Position numbers and translations under genes: made by a program
The notes under the pieces: model-generated
What the model was told of the DNA's origin: nothing
What the model saw: the letters and a program-made list of their open reading frames with translations, nothing else
Database searches by the model: none
Part shown: positions 27,108-34,525 of the stretch, one piece after another
Position numbering within the stretch: the first letter of the stretch is position 1
Layout of the letters: each line of letters opens with the position of its first letter
Origin: Acetobacteraceae bacterium
GTDB lineage: Bacteria > Pseudomonadota > Alphaproteobacteria > Acetobacterales > Acetobacteraceae
NCBI GenBank assembly: GCA_027449745.1
Contig: DAIDKZ010000114.1
Span: forward strand, 1 to 34,660
DNA length: 34,660 nt
Direction of reading: 5' to 3'

Positions 27108-27345
27108 TTGACATTGCCCATTTTTGCGACATTTTTGCTGCGCAGGTAGACGTCCCGCCTCCGGCATCGAGGGGTCCCCGAGAAATAGGGGCCGAGCGCA
27201 ATGCCGGAGTACGGCGCCCGGCCTGACGTGCAACCGGTGGAGTGACACCATGTCGAGGACTGCGTCGACGGCATCGCGAACCTGGTCCGGCCAAGCGGAA
27301 GCGCTGACGACGAGCGCCTCGGGTCGGCTTGGCTCGAGGGGTTAA
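27108..27345 (+). pseudogene. Orphan promoter and leader of the PDDEXK-like module, with truncated ORF (third copy)
   Basis: The segment aligns with the promoter and leader of the gene at 32683. TTGACA (27108-27113) follows CTTTTC. GGTCCCCG and GGCCGAGCGCA come next, then a long shared block (CCCGGCCTGACGTGCA, then GGAGTGACACCATGTCGA). The ATG at 27250 opens only a 31-codon reading with no similarity to the PDDEXK-like domain. Just before the ATG, GGTG and CACC can pair with the Shine-Dalgarno GAGTGA in the loop, as in the other copies. Confidence 0.6.
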
Positions 27346-28087: not shown

Positions 28088-30766
28088 TCACATCCGCATC
28101 CCCGCCCCGGGTTGCTCCGGCTCGGTTCGGGGCGGGCGCATCTGCCGTCGCGCCCGGGCGATGAGCGTGTCGAGGCGGCTGCGTGCGAGGGCCTCGACGT
28201 GGCGGGCGAGGCCGGGGTCCTGCGCCCGCAGGGCGGCAAGCAGCGCCGGGTCCGCGGCGATGGCCTGGGCGGCGCGCCAGGCTTGGGTGACGAGGCGGGC
28301 GAGCTCGGCCTCGTTCTCGTCGCTGCCCCGCCAGGCCGCGGCGAGGGTTTTCCGGGCTCGGGCGCTGTCGGCGATGGCGGCGCGGTGCCGGGACACGGCG
28401 TCCGCCACATCCACCGGGCGCGGTCCGGCCTCCGGCCGCCCCCGTGACGGTGGCGAAGGCCGTGCGTCGGGGACGACGATGCCGCTGTCGGGCACCAGGC
28501 CCCTGCGGACGGCGAAGCGGGCGTCGGCGGTGGTGACGGGGATGTCGGTCTCGCCGTAGTCGAGCGTGCTGTCGTTGCGCCGCTGGCGCGAGAGGGCGGT
28601 CCGCAGGCGGGCCTCGGTGCCCATCTCCTCGGCGCTCCAGTGCAGACTGAGCCGGTCGCGATGGCGGCTGAGGGCGACATAGGCGAGGTGACGGTCCATC
28701 CCCCGGCTCGCCAGGATATGGGCCTCGTCGACCGTGACGCCCTGGCTCCGGTGCACCGTGGCGGCGTAACCGTGGCCGATATCGGCATAGTCCTTGACGT
28801 CGAAGGCGACCTCCCGCCCGTCGTCGAGCCGCACCGTCAGCCTGGCCCCCGGCCCCGCCCCGTCGATGGCAACGAGCGTGCCAAGCGTGCCGTTCTTCAC
28901 CCCCAGGGACCGCTCGTTCCGCAGGAAGTAGACCCGGTCCCCGGCGGCGAGGACGAGCGGTCCCTGCCTGGTCGGCAGCGCGACGTCGGGACCAAGCTCC
29001 CCGGCCCGCCGCCGCACCGCCCGGGCCCTGGCATTGAGGTCGCGGACATCGGCGCGGCGATGGGCGAGGATGATGTGCGTCGCCGCCGGCCGCGCCGTCC
29101 GGGCCCCTGCCCAGCCGGCCACCAGCGCCGCCTTGGCGTCCTCGAGGCACTGATGCCCCCGCACCATCCCCGCCGCCTGGTAGCGGGCCAGCGCCGCCGC
29201 CGTGCGGCCGGTGGCCAGCTCCTGCGTCGCCTGCCGCTGCCAGGGCTCGCGCTGGCGCCGCACCGTGGCGATGGACGCCGCGCCGACGCGCTCGGCGAGG
29301 ACCCGGAACGGGGCCCCGGCGGCGATGGGCTGCAGCTGCTCCGGGTCGCCGACCAGCACCAGCTTCGCCCCCGCCGCCCGCACCGCCGCCACCAGCGCGG
29401 CCATCTGCTCGCTGCCGACCATCCCCGCCTCGTCGATGACCAGCACGTCGCGGGAGGTCAGCCGCTCCCGCCCCCGCCGCCACTGGTGCAGCAGCGAGGC
29501 GATGGTCCGGCTGGCGATGCCCGCTCCCTGCTGCAGCCCCTCGGCGGCGATGCCGGACAGCGCCGCGCCCCGCACCCGGTAGCCGGCCGCCGTCCAGACC
29601 TGCCGGGCGACGCCGAGCAGCGTGCTCTTGCCGGTCCCGGCATGCCCAACCACGGCGGCGAGGCTGTCCGCCGCGGTGATGTGGGCCAGCGCCGCTTGCT
29701 GCTCTTCGCCCAGCCCGGCCGCCCCGGCCAGCGCCCGGACCGGCTCCGGGGCCAGGGCCGGATGACCACGCCGCCCCGCCAGCCCGAGCCCGGCCTGCGC
29801 CAGCGTCTGCTCCAGCACCAGCATCGCGCGGGTGGTGAAGCGCTCCTGCCCGCTGCCATCGCGGCCCAGCCGGACCAGCTCCGGCGCCGCCTCCACCACC
29901 GCCAGGGCGGTGCGGAACTGCGCCGCGTCGGCGGTATGCCCGGTGAGGAAGCGGGCCAGGTCGCGGCGGGTGAAGGTCGCCTGCTGGCGGGTGATGGCGG
30001 CCAGCGCCAGCGCCGGGCTGGCGATGATTTTTTTCCCGTTCTCCTGCGCGATGCCCTGGTGGCGGGCCAGCCGGTCGGGGATGAGCCGCTCGGGGGCAGG
30101 CGGCTCGGGGTCCGGCGCGGCGGCGATGCGCAAAGCGGCGGCACCAATCTTGGTCTGGGGCAGGAGGGCGAGGCCCTGGTCGGCATAGCTGCGGTGGTCG
30201 ACGCGAACCTCCTGCCCGGCCTCGGCCAGGCGGGCATTGACCAGCCCGGCCCAGCGCTCGCGCCAGCGCCGCAGCAGGTCGGTCCCGTTCCACTCCCGCG
30301 CCTTGGCGCCGAACCCGTCCGGCCCGGCCCGGCGCAGGGTCAGCAGCACATGGGCATGGGGCTGGGCCTCGCCGTCACGGCCGCGGGGACAATGCACCGC
30401 GAGGTCGGCGACCATGCCGCGGCGCACGCACTCCGTCCTGACGAAGTCCCGCGCCAGCCGGATGGCCTCGGCCTGGGACAGCTCGCGCGGCAGGGCGAGT
30501 TCGAGCTCGCGGGCGAGCTGGGCGTCGCGGCGCCGCTCCGCCGCCTCGACCGCGTTCCACAGCACCGCGCGGTCCCCCCAGGCCTCGGGGGCGCCTTCGG
30601 GCAGCAGGACCGCGGCATGGACGACGCCAGCCTTCCGCCGGTAGTCGTGCACCCGGTCGGTCCGGGCATCGCGCAGCCGCGCCCCGGCGCGATAGGCCGC
30701 CGCCGCGACGGCACTGCGGCCGGCGGAGCGGGAGAGGATTTTCGCGCTGAGATGATAGATGGCCAT
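28088..30766 (-). CDS. traA: Conjugal transfer relaxase-helicase TraA (MobQ, Ti-type)
   Basis: This is a large relaxase-helicase (892 aa) that nicks the plasmid strand at oriT and unwinds it during conjugation. The N-terminal MobA/MobL domain (MAIYHLSAKILSRSAGRSAV, then AYRAGARL) includes the metal-binding PHAHVLLTLRR. The central part is a TraA/RecD-like helicase with Walker A VVGHAGTGKSTLL and Walker B VLVIDEAGMVGSEQM, plus later motifs GDPEQLQPI and ATVHRSQGVTVDEAHI. The start is the ATG before AIYHLS; a longer in-frame reading runs toward the putative oriT. No coupling protein or type IV secretion genes are in the window, so the element may be mobilisable or truncated. Confidence 0.94.
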   Translation of the reverse strand: MAIYHLSAKILSRSAGRSAVAAAAYRAGARLRDARTDRVHDYRRKAGVVHAAVLLPEGAPEAWGDRAVLWNAVEAAERRRDAQLARELELALPRELSQAEAIRLARDFVRTECVRRGMVADLAVHCPRGRDGEAQPHAHVLLTLRRAGPDGFGAKAREWNGTDLLRRWRERWAGLVNARLAEAGQEVRVDHRSYADQGLALLPQTKIGAAALRIAAAPDPEPPAPERLIPDRLARHQGIAQENGKKIIASPALALAAITRQQATFTRRDLARFLTGHTADAAQFRTALAVVEAAPELVRLGRDGSGQERFTTRAMLVLEQTLAQAGLGLAGRRGHPALAPEPVRALAGAAGLGEEQQAALAHITAADSLAAVVGHAGTGKSTLLGVARQVWTAAGYRVRGAALSGIAAEGLQQGAGIASRTIASLLHQWRRGRERLTSRDVLVIDEAGMVGSEQMAALVAAVRAAGAKLVLVGDPEQLQPIAAGAPFRVLAERVGAASIATVRRQREPWQRQATQELATGRTAAALARYQAAGMVRGHQCLEDAKAALVAGWAGARTARPAATHIILAHRRADVRDLNARARAVRRRAGELGPDVALPTRQGPLVLAAGDRVYFLRNERSLGVKNGTLGTLVAIDGAGPGARLTVRLDDGREVAFDVKDYADIGHGYAATVHRSQGVTVDEAHILASRGMDRHLAYVALSRHRDRLSLHWSAEEMGTEARLRTALSRQRRNDSTLDYGETDIPVTTADARFAVRRGLVPDSGIVVPDARPSPPSRGRPEAGPRPVDVADAVSRHRAAIADSARARKTLAAAWRGSDENEAELARLVTQAWRAAQAIAADPALLAALRAQDPGLARHVEALARSRLDTLIARARRQMRPPRTEPEQPGAGMRM

Positions 30767-30800
30767 GCCGCAAGCGTGACCGCTCCGCTGGCAAGGGAGA

Positions 30801-30814
30801 CGATAAGAATATCG
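30801..30814 (-). promoter_or_regulatory. Palindrome in the traA promoter region
   Basis: CGATA, AGAA, TATCG is a perfect short inverted repeat 35 bases upstream of the traA ATG, inside an AT-rich stretch likely to hold the traA promoter. It could be an operator. Confidence 0.4.
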
Positions 30815-30887
30815 GTCCACCCGAATAAATAATCAGGACGCCCCGGCACCACGCCGCCCGGGACATCAGGTCATCCGGACACCAGGG

Positions 30888-32531: not shown

Positions 32532-32570
32532 GCTTTTTCTATTGACTTTTCCCGGCAAATGAGACATAAC
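32532..32570 (+). promoter_or_regulatory. Promoter of PDDEXK-like module A
   Basis: TTGACT (32542-32547) and CATAAC (32565-32570) are 17 bases apart. The 15 bases GCTTTTTCTATTGAC (32532-32546) are identical to those upstream of module B, so the upstream element is conserved along with the -35 box. Confidence 0.7.
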
Positions 32571-32685
32571 TGCGGGCAGAGGCAAACACAACGCCTCCCG
32601 CCCGGGCGGTCCCCGGGGAACCAGGCGGCCGAGTGCATGCTGGAACATGACACCCGGCCTGACCTACAGCATGGAGTGCACCATG
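32571..32685 (+). ncRNA. Structured 5' leader of module A
   Basis: This is a leader of about 110 bases sharing GGCGGCCGAGTGCA and later blocks with modules B and C. GTGCATGCTG (32633-32642) can pair with CAGCA (32667-32671) and TGCAC (32677-32681), leaving the TGGAG Shine-Dalgarno as a bulge. A competing hairpin pairs CATGG (32670-32674) with CCATG (32681-32685), which includes the start codon. The two folds exclude each other. The structures are read by eye. Confidence 0.45.
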
Positions 32686-33273
32686 TCGAAGGCTGACGAC
32701 GACGATATCACGGGCCCGGCCGTGCCGGGAGGGAGGACCGACGGCGAGCGCTTCGAGCGCCGCGCCGGTCCGGCGGAGGCCGGGCCGGAGGAACCACCGC
32801 CGCTCCCGCGCGACATCCCCATCGGCAGGGCGGAGGTACACTTGGTCCTGGCGCGCCTGCTTCATTGGGGCATCCCCGCCCGGGTCGCCGCGCCGGACCT
32901 CCCCTACGACCTCATCGCCGAGCCGGGCGAGGAGTTCGGGAGCGTCCGCATCCGGGTGAGGACCATCCGGGTCGAGCGGCGCCGCCGGAACCGGTTCGCC
33001 CTGCGACAGGGCCATCACCATGCCCGGCGCGGGACGGTCGATGACCGCCCGGGAGAGTTCGACCTGGCCGCCTTCGTGACCCTGGACCTCGGCCGGGTGC
33101 AGTTCCGGGCGCGGCTGGTCGGCGGCATCCACATCGGTGCCGCCGCACTCCTCACCCATGGCGCCGAGTTGCGGAGCTGGTTCGCGGCCCTGTCCGCGCT
33201 GCTGGCCGGGCACTGGGCGCCGGCGGACGGCGATGCCGGTGACGCGGCCCCTCCGGCCTGGCCCACCGTCTGA
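32683..33273 (+). CDS. PD-(D/E)XK-like protein A, probable inactive paralogue
   Basis: This is a 196-aa protein from the ATG at 32683 (MSKADDDD), with GGAG 6-7 bases upstream. Residues 1-45 are polar and Pro-rich. Residues about 50-145 form the domain shared with module B: VHLVLARLLHWGIPA, LPYDLIAEPG (D76), GSVRIRVRTIRV and GEFDLAAFVTLDLGRVQFR. This pattern fits small PD-(D/E)XK endonuclease-like proteins, where the second motif is normally QVKT. Here it reads RVRT, with Arg at the catalytic Lys position (R93), so nuclease activity is doubtful. The function is unknown. Confidence 0.72.
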   Translation: MSKADDDDITGPAVPGGRTDGERFERRAGPAEAGPEEPPPLPRDIPIGRAEVHLVLARLLHWGIPARVAAPDLPYDLIAEPGEEFGSVRIRVRTIRVERRRRNRFALRQGHHHARRGTVDDRPGEFDLAAFVTLDLGRVQFRARLVGGIHIGAAALLTHGAELRSWFAALSALLAGHWAPADGDAGDAAPPAWPTV

Positions 33274-33686: not shown

Positions 33687-33725
33687 GCTTTTTCTATTGA
33701 CGCGTGCCAGCGGTGAGACTATATA
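33687..33725 (+). promoter_or_regulatory. Promoter of PDDEXK-like module B
   Basis: TTGACG (33697-33702) and TATATA (33720-33725) are 17 bases apart, preceded by the same 15-base sequence GCTTTTTCTATTGAC (33687-33701) as in module A. Confidence 0.7.
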
Positions 33726-33830
33726 CACAATCAGCCAGGCCGTTGCTTCCCCGATTGTCGGGGCGGGGCGGCCGAGTGCAGTGCGCCAACACTGCACCCA
33801 GCCTGGCTCGCACCATTGGAGGGACCAATG
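33726..33830 (+). ncRNA. Structured 5' leader of module B
   Basis: Three hairpins are visible: CCCCGA/TCGGGG near 33750-33763, GTGCAGTG/CACTGCAC (33776-33783 with 33790-33797), and CATTGG/CCAATG (33814-33819 with 33825-33830). The last encloses the AGGGA Shine-Dalgarno in its loop, and its 3' arm includes the start codon. GGCGGCCGAGTGCA is shared with module A. Confidence 0.5.
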
Positions 33831-34525
33831 TCACGAGTTGCACGCAGCCTTATCACGCCCGAGGCCGAGCCGGGAGGCGCATGCCCGTCGGCGCGGGCCG
33901 TGCCCGCCGCCGCCCTGTTCCTGCCGTCGGGGCCGCACGACATCCGCATCGACCGGCCGGAACGCGATACGCCGCCCCCGGCCGCGGTGATGACCGCGGG
34001 CGGCGCGATGCCGCCGGCACCACCGCCGCCGGCCATGGCGGACGGCGAGGATTTTCCCGAGCCGCGTCCGACCGACGTCATGATTGGCGATGCGGGGCGT
34101 ATCTCGTGCTGTCACGGCTGCTCCATTGGGGCAGTCCCGCCCATCCCGCCGGCTCCGGCCTGCCCTATGACATCATCGCCCATGGCGGCCGCGGGGTCGG
34201 CCTCATCTGCCTGCAGGTCAAGACCACGACGCAGCCACCGCGCGGGCGGCGCTACTGCTTCGCCCTCCGGCGCGGGTTCCACGGCTCGGCGCATGGCGTC
34301 TTCGCCTACCGGGCGGGGGATTTCGACATCGCCGCCTTCGTCTCCCTCGCACTCGGCCGGGTGCTGTTCCGCCCCTTCGGGCAGCCGACCTTCTCCGCCA
34401 CCCCGGCCGAGTTCGCGGCGCCGGAGGCCGAGCAGGAGAGTTTCCGGAGCGCGCTCGCCGCCGTGCGGGCGCGACGTCGGACCCCGCCCGCAGGCGGCGT
34501 CCCGGCGCCGCCGCCGCCGGCCTGA
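33828..34525 (+). CDS. PD-(D/E)XK-like protein B, frameshifted or recoded
   Basis: The expected start is the ATG at 33828, with GGAGGGA just upstream. The N-terminal frame (MSRVARSLITPEAEPG, then PTDVMIGDAG) lacks the conserved domain, which continues in the -1 frame from 34097 as AYLVLSRLLHWGSPA, LPYDIIAHGG, LICLQVKTTTQ and GDFDIAAFVSLALGRVLFRP. The joint is at GCG GGG (34092-34097), where a GGG codon can slip back onto an identical GGG. Joined, it makes about 232 aa. Unlike protein A it keeps the PD-(D/E)XK signature (D in YDIIA, Q and K in QVK). Either one G was lost from a G-run or translation shifts frame. Confidence 0.65.

Follow-up and report, generated by a model that had tools for sequence, protein, structure and literature searches.

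The window, that is, the whole 34,660-nucleotide stretch of DNA from an Acetobacteraceae bacterium analyzed here, is one whole contig and carries three copies of a leader element (modules A, B, and C; table 1). R1, a covariance model whose sole structure is the hairpin P1, gave three strong matches in the window, one in each module. The initial annotation had described in all three copies a small stem that abuts or contains the ATG, with the Shine–Dalgarno sequence (SD) in or beside its loop; the three stems were found exactly where it had placed them, and the SD does lie within or beside the loop in leaders A, B, and C. Module A looks intact and is the working candidate. Module B keeps a good predicted antisense fold over a frameshifted gene, gene B being either a frameshifted copy or the product of a sequence error; in a relative (L029; L020:5016-), a B-type start is in frame with the domain, up to the end of its contig. 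Module C, in which the promoter motif, the fold, and the open reading frame (ORF; just 31 residues) have all been lost, is a remnant. A MobA/MobL relaxase-helicase gene lies between modules C and A (28088–30820, minus strand), the context of a mobilizable element.

Table 1. Positions of the leader modules and their predicted antisense RNAs in the window.
Feature	Position	Strand	Remarks
Expected place of antisense RNA of C	27186–27261	−	Promoter motif lost, weak fold; z −1.38 antisense, −1.23 sense
Module C hairpin P1	27190–27223	+	R1 57.7 bits
Module C start-site hairpin	27236–27249	+	GGTG 27236–27239/CACC 27246–27249; directly adjoins ATG at 27250
Sense promoter of module A	32542–32570	+	By eye: TTGACT, 17 nt, CATAAC
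Predicted antisense RNA of A, ~72 nt	32623–32694	−	5′ end 32694; 3′ end assumed, four bases beyond P1; z −4.12 antisense, −2.13 sense
Module A hairpin P1	32627–32659	+	Sense view of predicted antisense stem-loop II; R1 69.6 bits, covariation
Module A hairpin P2	32670–32685	+	CATGG 32670–32674/CCATG 32681–32685; SD in loop, ATG (32683) in 3′ arm; apex of predicted antisense stem-loop I
Gene A, 196 aa	32683–33273	+	Distant PD-(D/E)XK-like family; R at catalytic lysine position
Predicted antisense promoter of A	32702–32711	−	GTGATATCGT, extended −10 TGnTA, within codons 7–10; position and spacing conserved over family
Sense promoter of module B	33697–33725	+	By eye: TTGACG, 17 nt, TATATA
Predicted antisense RNA of B, ~74 nt	33766–33839	−	z −4.94 antisense, −1.61 sense
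Module B hairpin P1	33770–33803	+	R1 76.6 bits
Module B hairpin P2	33814–33830	+	CATTGG 33814–33819/CCAATG 33825–33830; encloses ATG at 33828
Gene B	33828–34525	+	ATG frame differs from frame of conserved PD-(D/E)XK-like domain (34088–34372)
Predicted antisense promoter of B	33847–33856	−	GTGATAAGGC

The sense promoter that we recognized by eye upstream of module A, unreported by a consensus promoter scan, contains TTTTTCTATTGAC, an exact copy of which occurs in module B (shuffles average 0.01 matches at two mismatches or fewer). We rejected this sequence as a family-wide box: it was found in only one other genome of 60, and with no such leader beside it (L017). Differing short repeats or palindromes, operator-like by eye, surround the sense promoters of five other leaders, upstream of P1 (L036, L041, L045, L046, and L056).

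Matches to protein A were present in 12 of 299 genomes of the family, its own included; the weaker ones, by our reading, belong to another, methyltransferase-adjacent group or are due to chance, and lack the leader. Its relatives were found on seven contigs of the GTDB collection, Acidiphilium and Acidocella among them, which suggests that Acetobacteraceae is the family in question. The protein of L005 retrieved eight plasmid records with distant relatives (Sulfitobacter, Roseovarius, and Paracoccus); viral contigs searched with the protein alignment yielded none. Protein A and its nearest orthologue (L004/L020) read RVRT where the other aligned relatives read QVKT, so that both lack the lysine that is probably catalytic in the PD-(D/E)XK site. 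Pfam PDDEXK_5 gave no match to protein A and matched the segment of gene B with an E-value of 0.31, short of the gathering threshold; the AlphaFold model of protein A, with a mean pLDDT of 38.6, was set aside. The closer relatives share not only the protein but also the leader, in which P1 is followed by a conserved strip, CC(A/G)GCCTG(A/G)CC, and then by the SD and ATG within the start-site hairpin P2. The initial annotation had thus seen the smaller half of a larger element, on the sense strand only: a strongly covarying hairpin P1 precedes the hairpin P2 that it had described.

Because three leaders are little proof by themselves, the test of compensating changes was widened to leaders from the window genome and its relatives. 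From a set of 75, we removed three by hand as doubtful (L072_648, L086, and L084) and five near-duplicates (more than 85% identical), which left 67; L096 was dropped because no start was found. Two of the 67, in which the SD was not recognized, were left out of the P2 test. When the arms of P2 were swapped between the remaining 65 leaders, the mean minimum free energy (MFE) on the sense strand rose from −7.04 for own arms to −5.04 (standard deviation 0.21; 0 of 200 permutations, a count that, like the covariation counts below, is not a probability since related sequences are not independent), and the longest Watson–Crick stem fell from 4.17 to 3.56 (0 of 300 permutations). The advantage of own over swapped arms was also seen separately in the two length classes, of 41 and 24 leaders, the P2 subtypes being separated by linker length only. 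The claim that the arms change together therefore holds well beyond the three copies for which it was made. Leader by leader, some P2 hairpins are unconvincing alone: the longest perfect stem reaches at least 4 bp in 43 of the 65 leaders and at most 3 bp in 22, and in 40 its 3′ arm extends to the first or second codon, 30 of these having at least 4 bp.

The wider homologous set also bears out compensating changes in P1. With 68 leaders in an alignment fitted to the structure, the covariation score was 0.363 versus 0.104 after shuffling (0 of 500 on all five measures), 102 cells had changed on both sides versus 23.8 shuffled, 91.8% of the cells were paired, double changes occurred at 11 of 12 pairs, and sliding the structure along the alignment reduced the score to 0.008–0.035. 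Without such fitting, RNAalifold on a MAFFT alignment of 11 leaders still predicted P1, 6 of its 12 pairs showing double changes; P2 was not predicted on this alignment, which misplaces its arms. When the same number of leaders were folded singly, the inner P1 stem formed in all 11 and, by reading, the start-site stem in 10 (L022 pairs differently), with fold energies of the short core that are often unremarkable (z −0.80 to −3.84). Since the hairpins are conserved with compensating changes and positioned on the translation start, control of translation is likely, as the initial annotation had proposed.

Which strand folds was addressed by comparing both strands of the segment spanning P1 through the predicted start of the antisense RNA, with a dinucleotide-shuffle correction. 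For this, for the promoter table, and for the TG/−10 comparison described below, two of the 67 leaders, which have no early GCT, GTT, TCT, or ACT codon, were dropped. The composition-corrected z averaged −4.80 on the antisense strand (at or below −2 in 64 of 65 leaders) and −2.26 on the sense strand (39 of 65), a marked difference that points to a cis-antisense RNA. Only these z-scores count, because shuffled sequences, too, have the better raw energy on the antisense strand in 55 of 65 cases; we rejected the raw MFE comparison as largely compositional and replaced it by z-scores. The mismatches agree with this polarity: next to the outer stem of P1, an A.C mismatch in 39 of 68 leaders corresponds to G.U on the antisense strand, and G.U never occurs there on the sense strand, while across P1, G.U and A.C reach 0.37 and 0.55 of the re-dealt expectation, a modest lean towards antisense. 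The predicted antisense RNA is 72–88 nt long (median 76, with an assumed 3′ end), consists of two stem-loops, and is by position complementary to the target's SD and start codon. Its stem-loop I, which has P2 as its apex, folds better from its own halves than from swapped ones (−16.03 vs. −9.81 kcal/mol, standard deviation 0.38; 0 of 200 permutations) and extends to the 5′ end: in 56 of 65 MFE folds, the 5′ AGCC pairs with the strip that precedes P1′. This pairing would account for why both the strip and the GCT codon are conserved. The T-tail that follows P1′ is weak.

The conserved block also includes a promoter-like motif inside the target ORF. The sense-strand pattern TAnCA occurs at ATG+9 to +45 in 41 of 67 leaders versus 11 of 439 windows taken further along these genes, and TAnCAC in 38 leaders versus 4 of the windows. 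In the 41 leaders aligned on TAnCA alone, the predicted +1 is an A in every case, with an adjacent G in 38 and C in 40, at a fixed distance. Read in antisense, the motif is GTGnTA, 10 nt, and YAGC, as for an extended −10 with a start at A. This alignment is free of the anchor used for the promoter table, in which 65 leaders were aligned on the T of an early codon, so that its +1 A in 65 of 65 is there by construction; the choice of start codons did, however, favor candidates with Ala/Val close by. In 40 loci, 11 different residues are found at the NNT codon under the motif, and such varying residues over fixed bases indicate a constraint on nucleotides. Strict TAnCA is absent from 26 of the 67 leaders and from 9 of the 17 loci read in the class survey (present in 8). 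No −35 element stands out among the 65 leaders; in the 24 that lack the TG, the −10 hexamer is poorer (2.25 vs. 3.00 matches on average), so TG and −10 do not compensate for each other; and at A a consensus promoter and terminator scan found nothing on either strand. With these points against it, an antisense promoter inside the target ORF stays no more than likely, as judged from the motif and its spacing.

At an E-value of 0.01 or below, R1 matched 152 of 397 genomes of the family, in 54 of 102 genera; the best E-value is below 1e-6 in 66 of the 152, chance hits occur among the weak matches, and part of the matches are to a P1 already counted, read on its reverse strand. In one genome (G062), R1 matched at eight places, with a ninth match on the reverse strand of one of the eight. 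A second model, R2, built from this leader family only, without the known antisense RNAs, was found, at an E-value of 0.001 or below, in 37 of the 289 genomes searched in the class, including the window genome and one more genome of the family; three of the 17 class-survey loci read (L110, L119, and L120) do not look convincing, and the rest show the same anatomy by eye. With the leader of L080 as query, plasmids gave two unannotated Azospirillum records, covering 38% and 33% of it, and E. coli genomes gave no match. As for the surroundings, a small, divergent HTH-like gene (MITGxQIRAARA... or ...QxRAARGLLGWS...) was seen by eye just upstream of leaders L022–L025, L038, L062, L051, L076, L080, and L093, and perhaps encodes a transcriptional repressor acting as a second lock. 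Matches to the Rfam int-alpA RNA lie within 3 kb of leaders L056, L082, L091, and L093, two of the four being above the gathering score, which hints at integrative elements, and suhB/mmgR small RNA matches above gathering lie near two loci, at L057:1687-1758 (−) and L033:1-56 (+).

The genes behind the leaders are diverse. After exclusion of three of the 67 proteins, shorter than 30 residues once trimmed, the remaining 64 formed 43 clusters, the largest of which is the PD-(D/E)XK group with 11 members. Because the element precedes dozens of unrelated proteins, it is not the autoregulatory site of a single protein family, so that this part of the initial proposal falls. In Pfam and PHROGs scans of 59 downstream proteins chosen from the 75, PDDEXK_5 was found in four at an E-value of 0.01 or below (best 4e-8), DUF6880 in one, phrog_5018 (no function) in six, phrog_24524 in two, and eight other PHROGs families once each. 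These unrelated proteins have the nucleotides of their first ~11 codons in common. Soon after the shared first codons, a twin-arginine-like stretch follows in eight loci by pattern (L036, L037, L042, L051, L054, L064, L066, and L087) and in L034 by eye, and the leader of L088 precedes a 270-residue protein (L088:1321-2130, plus strand) with ParB-like PHROGs matches (E-value 1e-20). Type I toxin–antitoxin systems combine an antisense RNA with a protein that is toxic to the cell producing it. Candidates for type I toxin-like proteins, small and with a single strongly hydrophobic segment, lie behind five leaders (L028, L033, and L057, 79–81 residues; L044, 80 residues; L082, 56 residues); gene A is not of this sort.

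These data make it highly probable that the leaders are the translation-start targets of cis-antisense RNAs of the FinP/RepX/SymR type. Computation shows the two-hairpin anatomy, the covariation, the strand preference, a promoter-like motif at fixed spacing, and a match in position to RepX and SymR (see below); that the antisense RNA is transcribed, represses, and is ended by the antisense strand of P1 is what we infer from them. The RNA would be transcribed from the extended −10 promoter (GTGnTA), start inside the first codons at the conserved A that faces the T of an early, mostly GCT, codon, run back over the ATG and SD, and end after P1 as two stem-loops with a short linker, within the length range given above. 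The mRNA leader would fold as their weaker mirror images, P1 and P2, and pairing of the two RNAs, in which loop–loop contact is the probable first step, would mask the SD and ATG and prevent translation. Since the stems diverge while the anatomy is conserved, each copy would be specific to its own mRNA. The initial interpretation was therefore right in kind, translation being what is controlled, and the likely agent is an antisense RNA.

The hairpins might instead act in the sense mRNA only, with no antisense RNA, whether by switching translation, by sensing temperature, or by binding an RNA-binding regulator common to many genes. In favor of this, P2 on the sense strand pairs better with own than with swapped arms, and the sense folds have slightly better scores than shuffled sequences; nothing in the results points to a thermometer. 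We consider a sense-only role improbable, given that after correction the opposite strand folds much better, that the mismatch on the side of P1 is A.C in 39 of 68 leaders and thus pairs on the antisense strand alone, that the conserved block extends into the codons with promoter-like spacing, and that two known antisense loci are matched in register. For module A, the initial annotation suggested a two-state switch by way of a competing 10-bp stem. That stem is present letter for letter, and complementary segments do exist, but the best fold containing it (−15.3 kcal/mol) is 11.4 kcal/mol less stable than the MFE structure (−26.7), and over 67 leaders the 5′ half of P1 pairs no better with its own start region (5.40) than with that of another leader (5.41; 102 of 200 permutations at or above), so that fold and pairing tests leave such a switch scarcely credible.

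The conserved block could also be a DNA site, made of palindromic operators or of a recombination site joining different genes to one 5′ end, as might be suggested by the near palindromy of P1, whose model matches its own reverse complement in many loci, and by the common nucleotides in the first ~11 codons of unrelated proteins. A DNA site is, however, difficult to reconcile with the strand polarity of the mismatch beside the outer stem (39 A.C vs. no G.T among 68) and with the retention of the SD, ATG, and start-site stem; moreover, RepX and SymR, which have the same anatomy, are characterized as antisense RNAs in the parts of the two reports available to us (PMC8136791; PMC1891008). We regard it as very unlikely.

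Comparison with known systems favors a target of cis-antisense RNA. Three Rfam families are relevant: RF00043, the RepX/R1162 RNA, antisense to repA of the IncQ plasmids R1162/RSF1010; RF01809, SymR, the antitoxin RNA of symE in E. coli; and RF00107, FinP, antisense to traJ. Such antisense RNAs repress symE in E. coli or control the copy number of IncQ plasmids. No Rfam family reached its gathering threshold in the window. With a permissive threshold applied to 27 loci (7 + 20), full-length matches fell exactly at the leader in 10, and none of the three families was found at the other 17. The R1162 RNA matched the sense strand in six loci (L044, L045, L052, L056, L065, and L093; 28.1–35.8 bits, gathering score 55), SymR the opposite strand in three (L080, 1-77, 40.1 bits; L082, 29.9; L036, 28.6; gathering score 61), and FinP the opposite strand in L065 (1-76, 35.3 bits; gathering score 45) and L085, L065 being matched by both R1162 and FinP; all these scores are below gathering and several have E-values near 1. 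The asX6 family also matched one leader (L066). In the reverse direction, R2 scored 36.1 bits on the IncQ1 repA leader, the best in the stretch searched, overlying the start of the RepA helicase gene. On E. coli, it matched symR end to end (1334-1412 vs. the annotated 1336-1412) with 16.9 bits, again the best in the stretch searched; this score extrapolates to an E-value of about 0.3 over the whole genome and is thus unremarkable, so that the symR match rests on its position. In both loci, a −10 lies thirteen bases before the A, and the raw folds of the antisense and sense strands are −46.4 and −37.8 kcal/mol for IncQ1 and −37.9 and −28.7 kcal/mol for symR.

RepX overlaps the ribosome-binding site and initiation codon of repA, has a two-stem-loop fold like that of FinP, a likeness already published, and is bound by FinO, according to the part of that report available to us (PMC8136791), with which the accessible portion of a review conflicts, its table listing IncQ as having no antisense system (PMC12361487). 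The leaders resemble RepX in having two stem-loops over the SD and start codon within ~75 nt, the same linker region (sense CCTAACC), and a common motif at an equal distance from the predicted start (TGATAGGCTTATGGGT-A on IncQ1); they differ in that the downstream genes examined were not recognized as replication genes. With FinP they share the two stem-loops but not a FinO partner, none having been found for the leaders: a FinO/ProQ-domain protein (PF04352) was detected in 4 of 200 genomes of the family, three over the cut-off, and not in the window genome (93% complete), so the system probably works without that chaperone. SymR, in the excerpts available, is a 77-nt cis-antisense RNA over the 5′ end of its mRNA, with a promoter inside symE, and mutation of its −10 abolished it (PMC1891008). 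Its annotated 5′ end in K-12 lies opposite base 6 of symE, as predicted for ATGGCT-type leaders; none of the 59 downstream proteins scanned was recognized as SymE-like by Pfam.

Beyond the individual loci, we lean towards a portable antisense silencer, one ancestral unit comprising leader, antisense RNA, and the first ~11 codons at the nucleotide level, which would be ancestral or sister to symE/symR, IncQ RepX, and perhaps FinP, and which would have come to stand in front of dozens of unrelated accessory genes throughout the class, in up to eight copies per genome, each copy specific to itself and independent of a FinO/ProQ chaperone. The literature searched, available to us in part, gave no prior description of this leader family and did not name SymR and RepX together. 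Dozens of small proteins that lack annotation would be marked by such a family as products of accessory genes that are probably kept tightly silent, some of them perhaps type I toxins, and the family would offer many natural variants that bear on how sense/antisense specificity evolves with several copies per cell and on which gene contents need such control. It would also tie SymR, RepX/R1162, and FinP, mostly treated apart, to one large family that goes unrecognized at Rfam thresholds.
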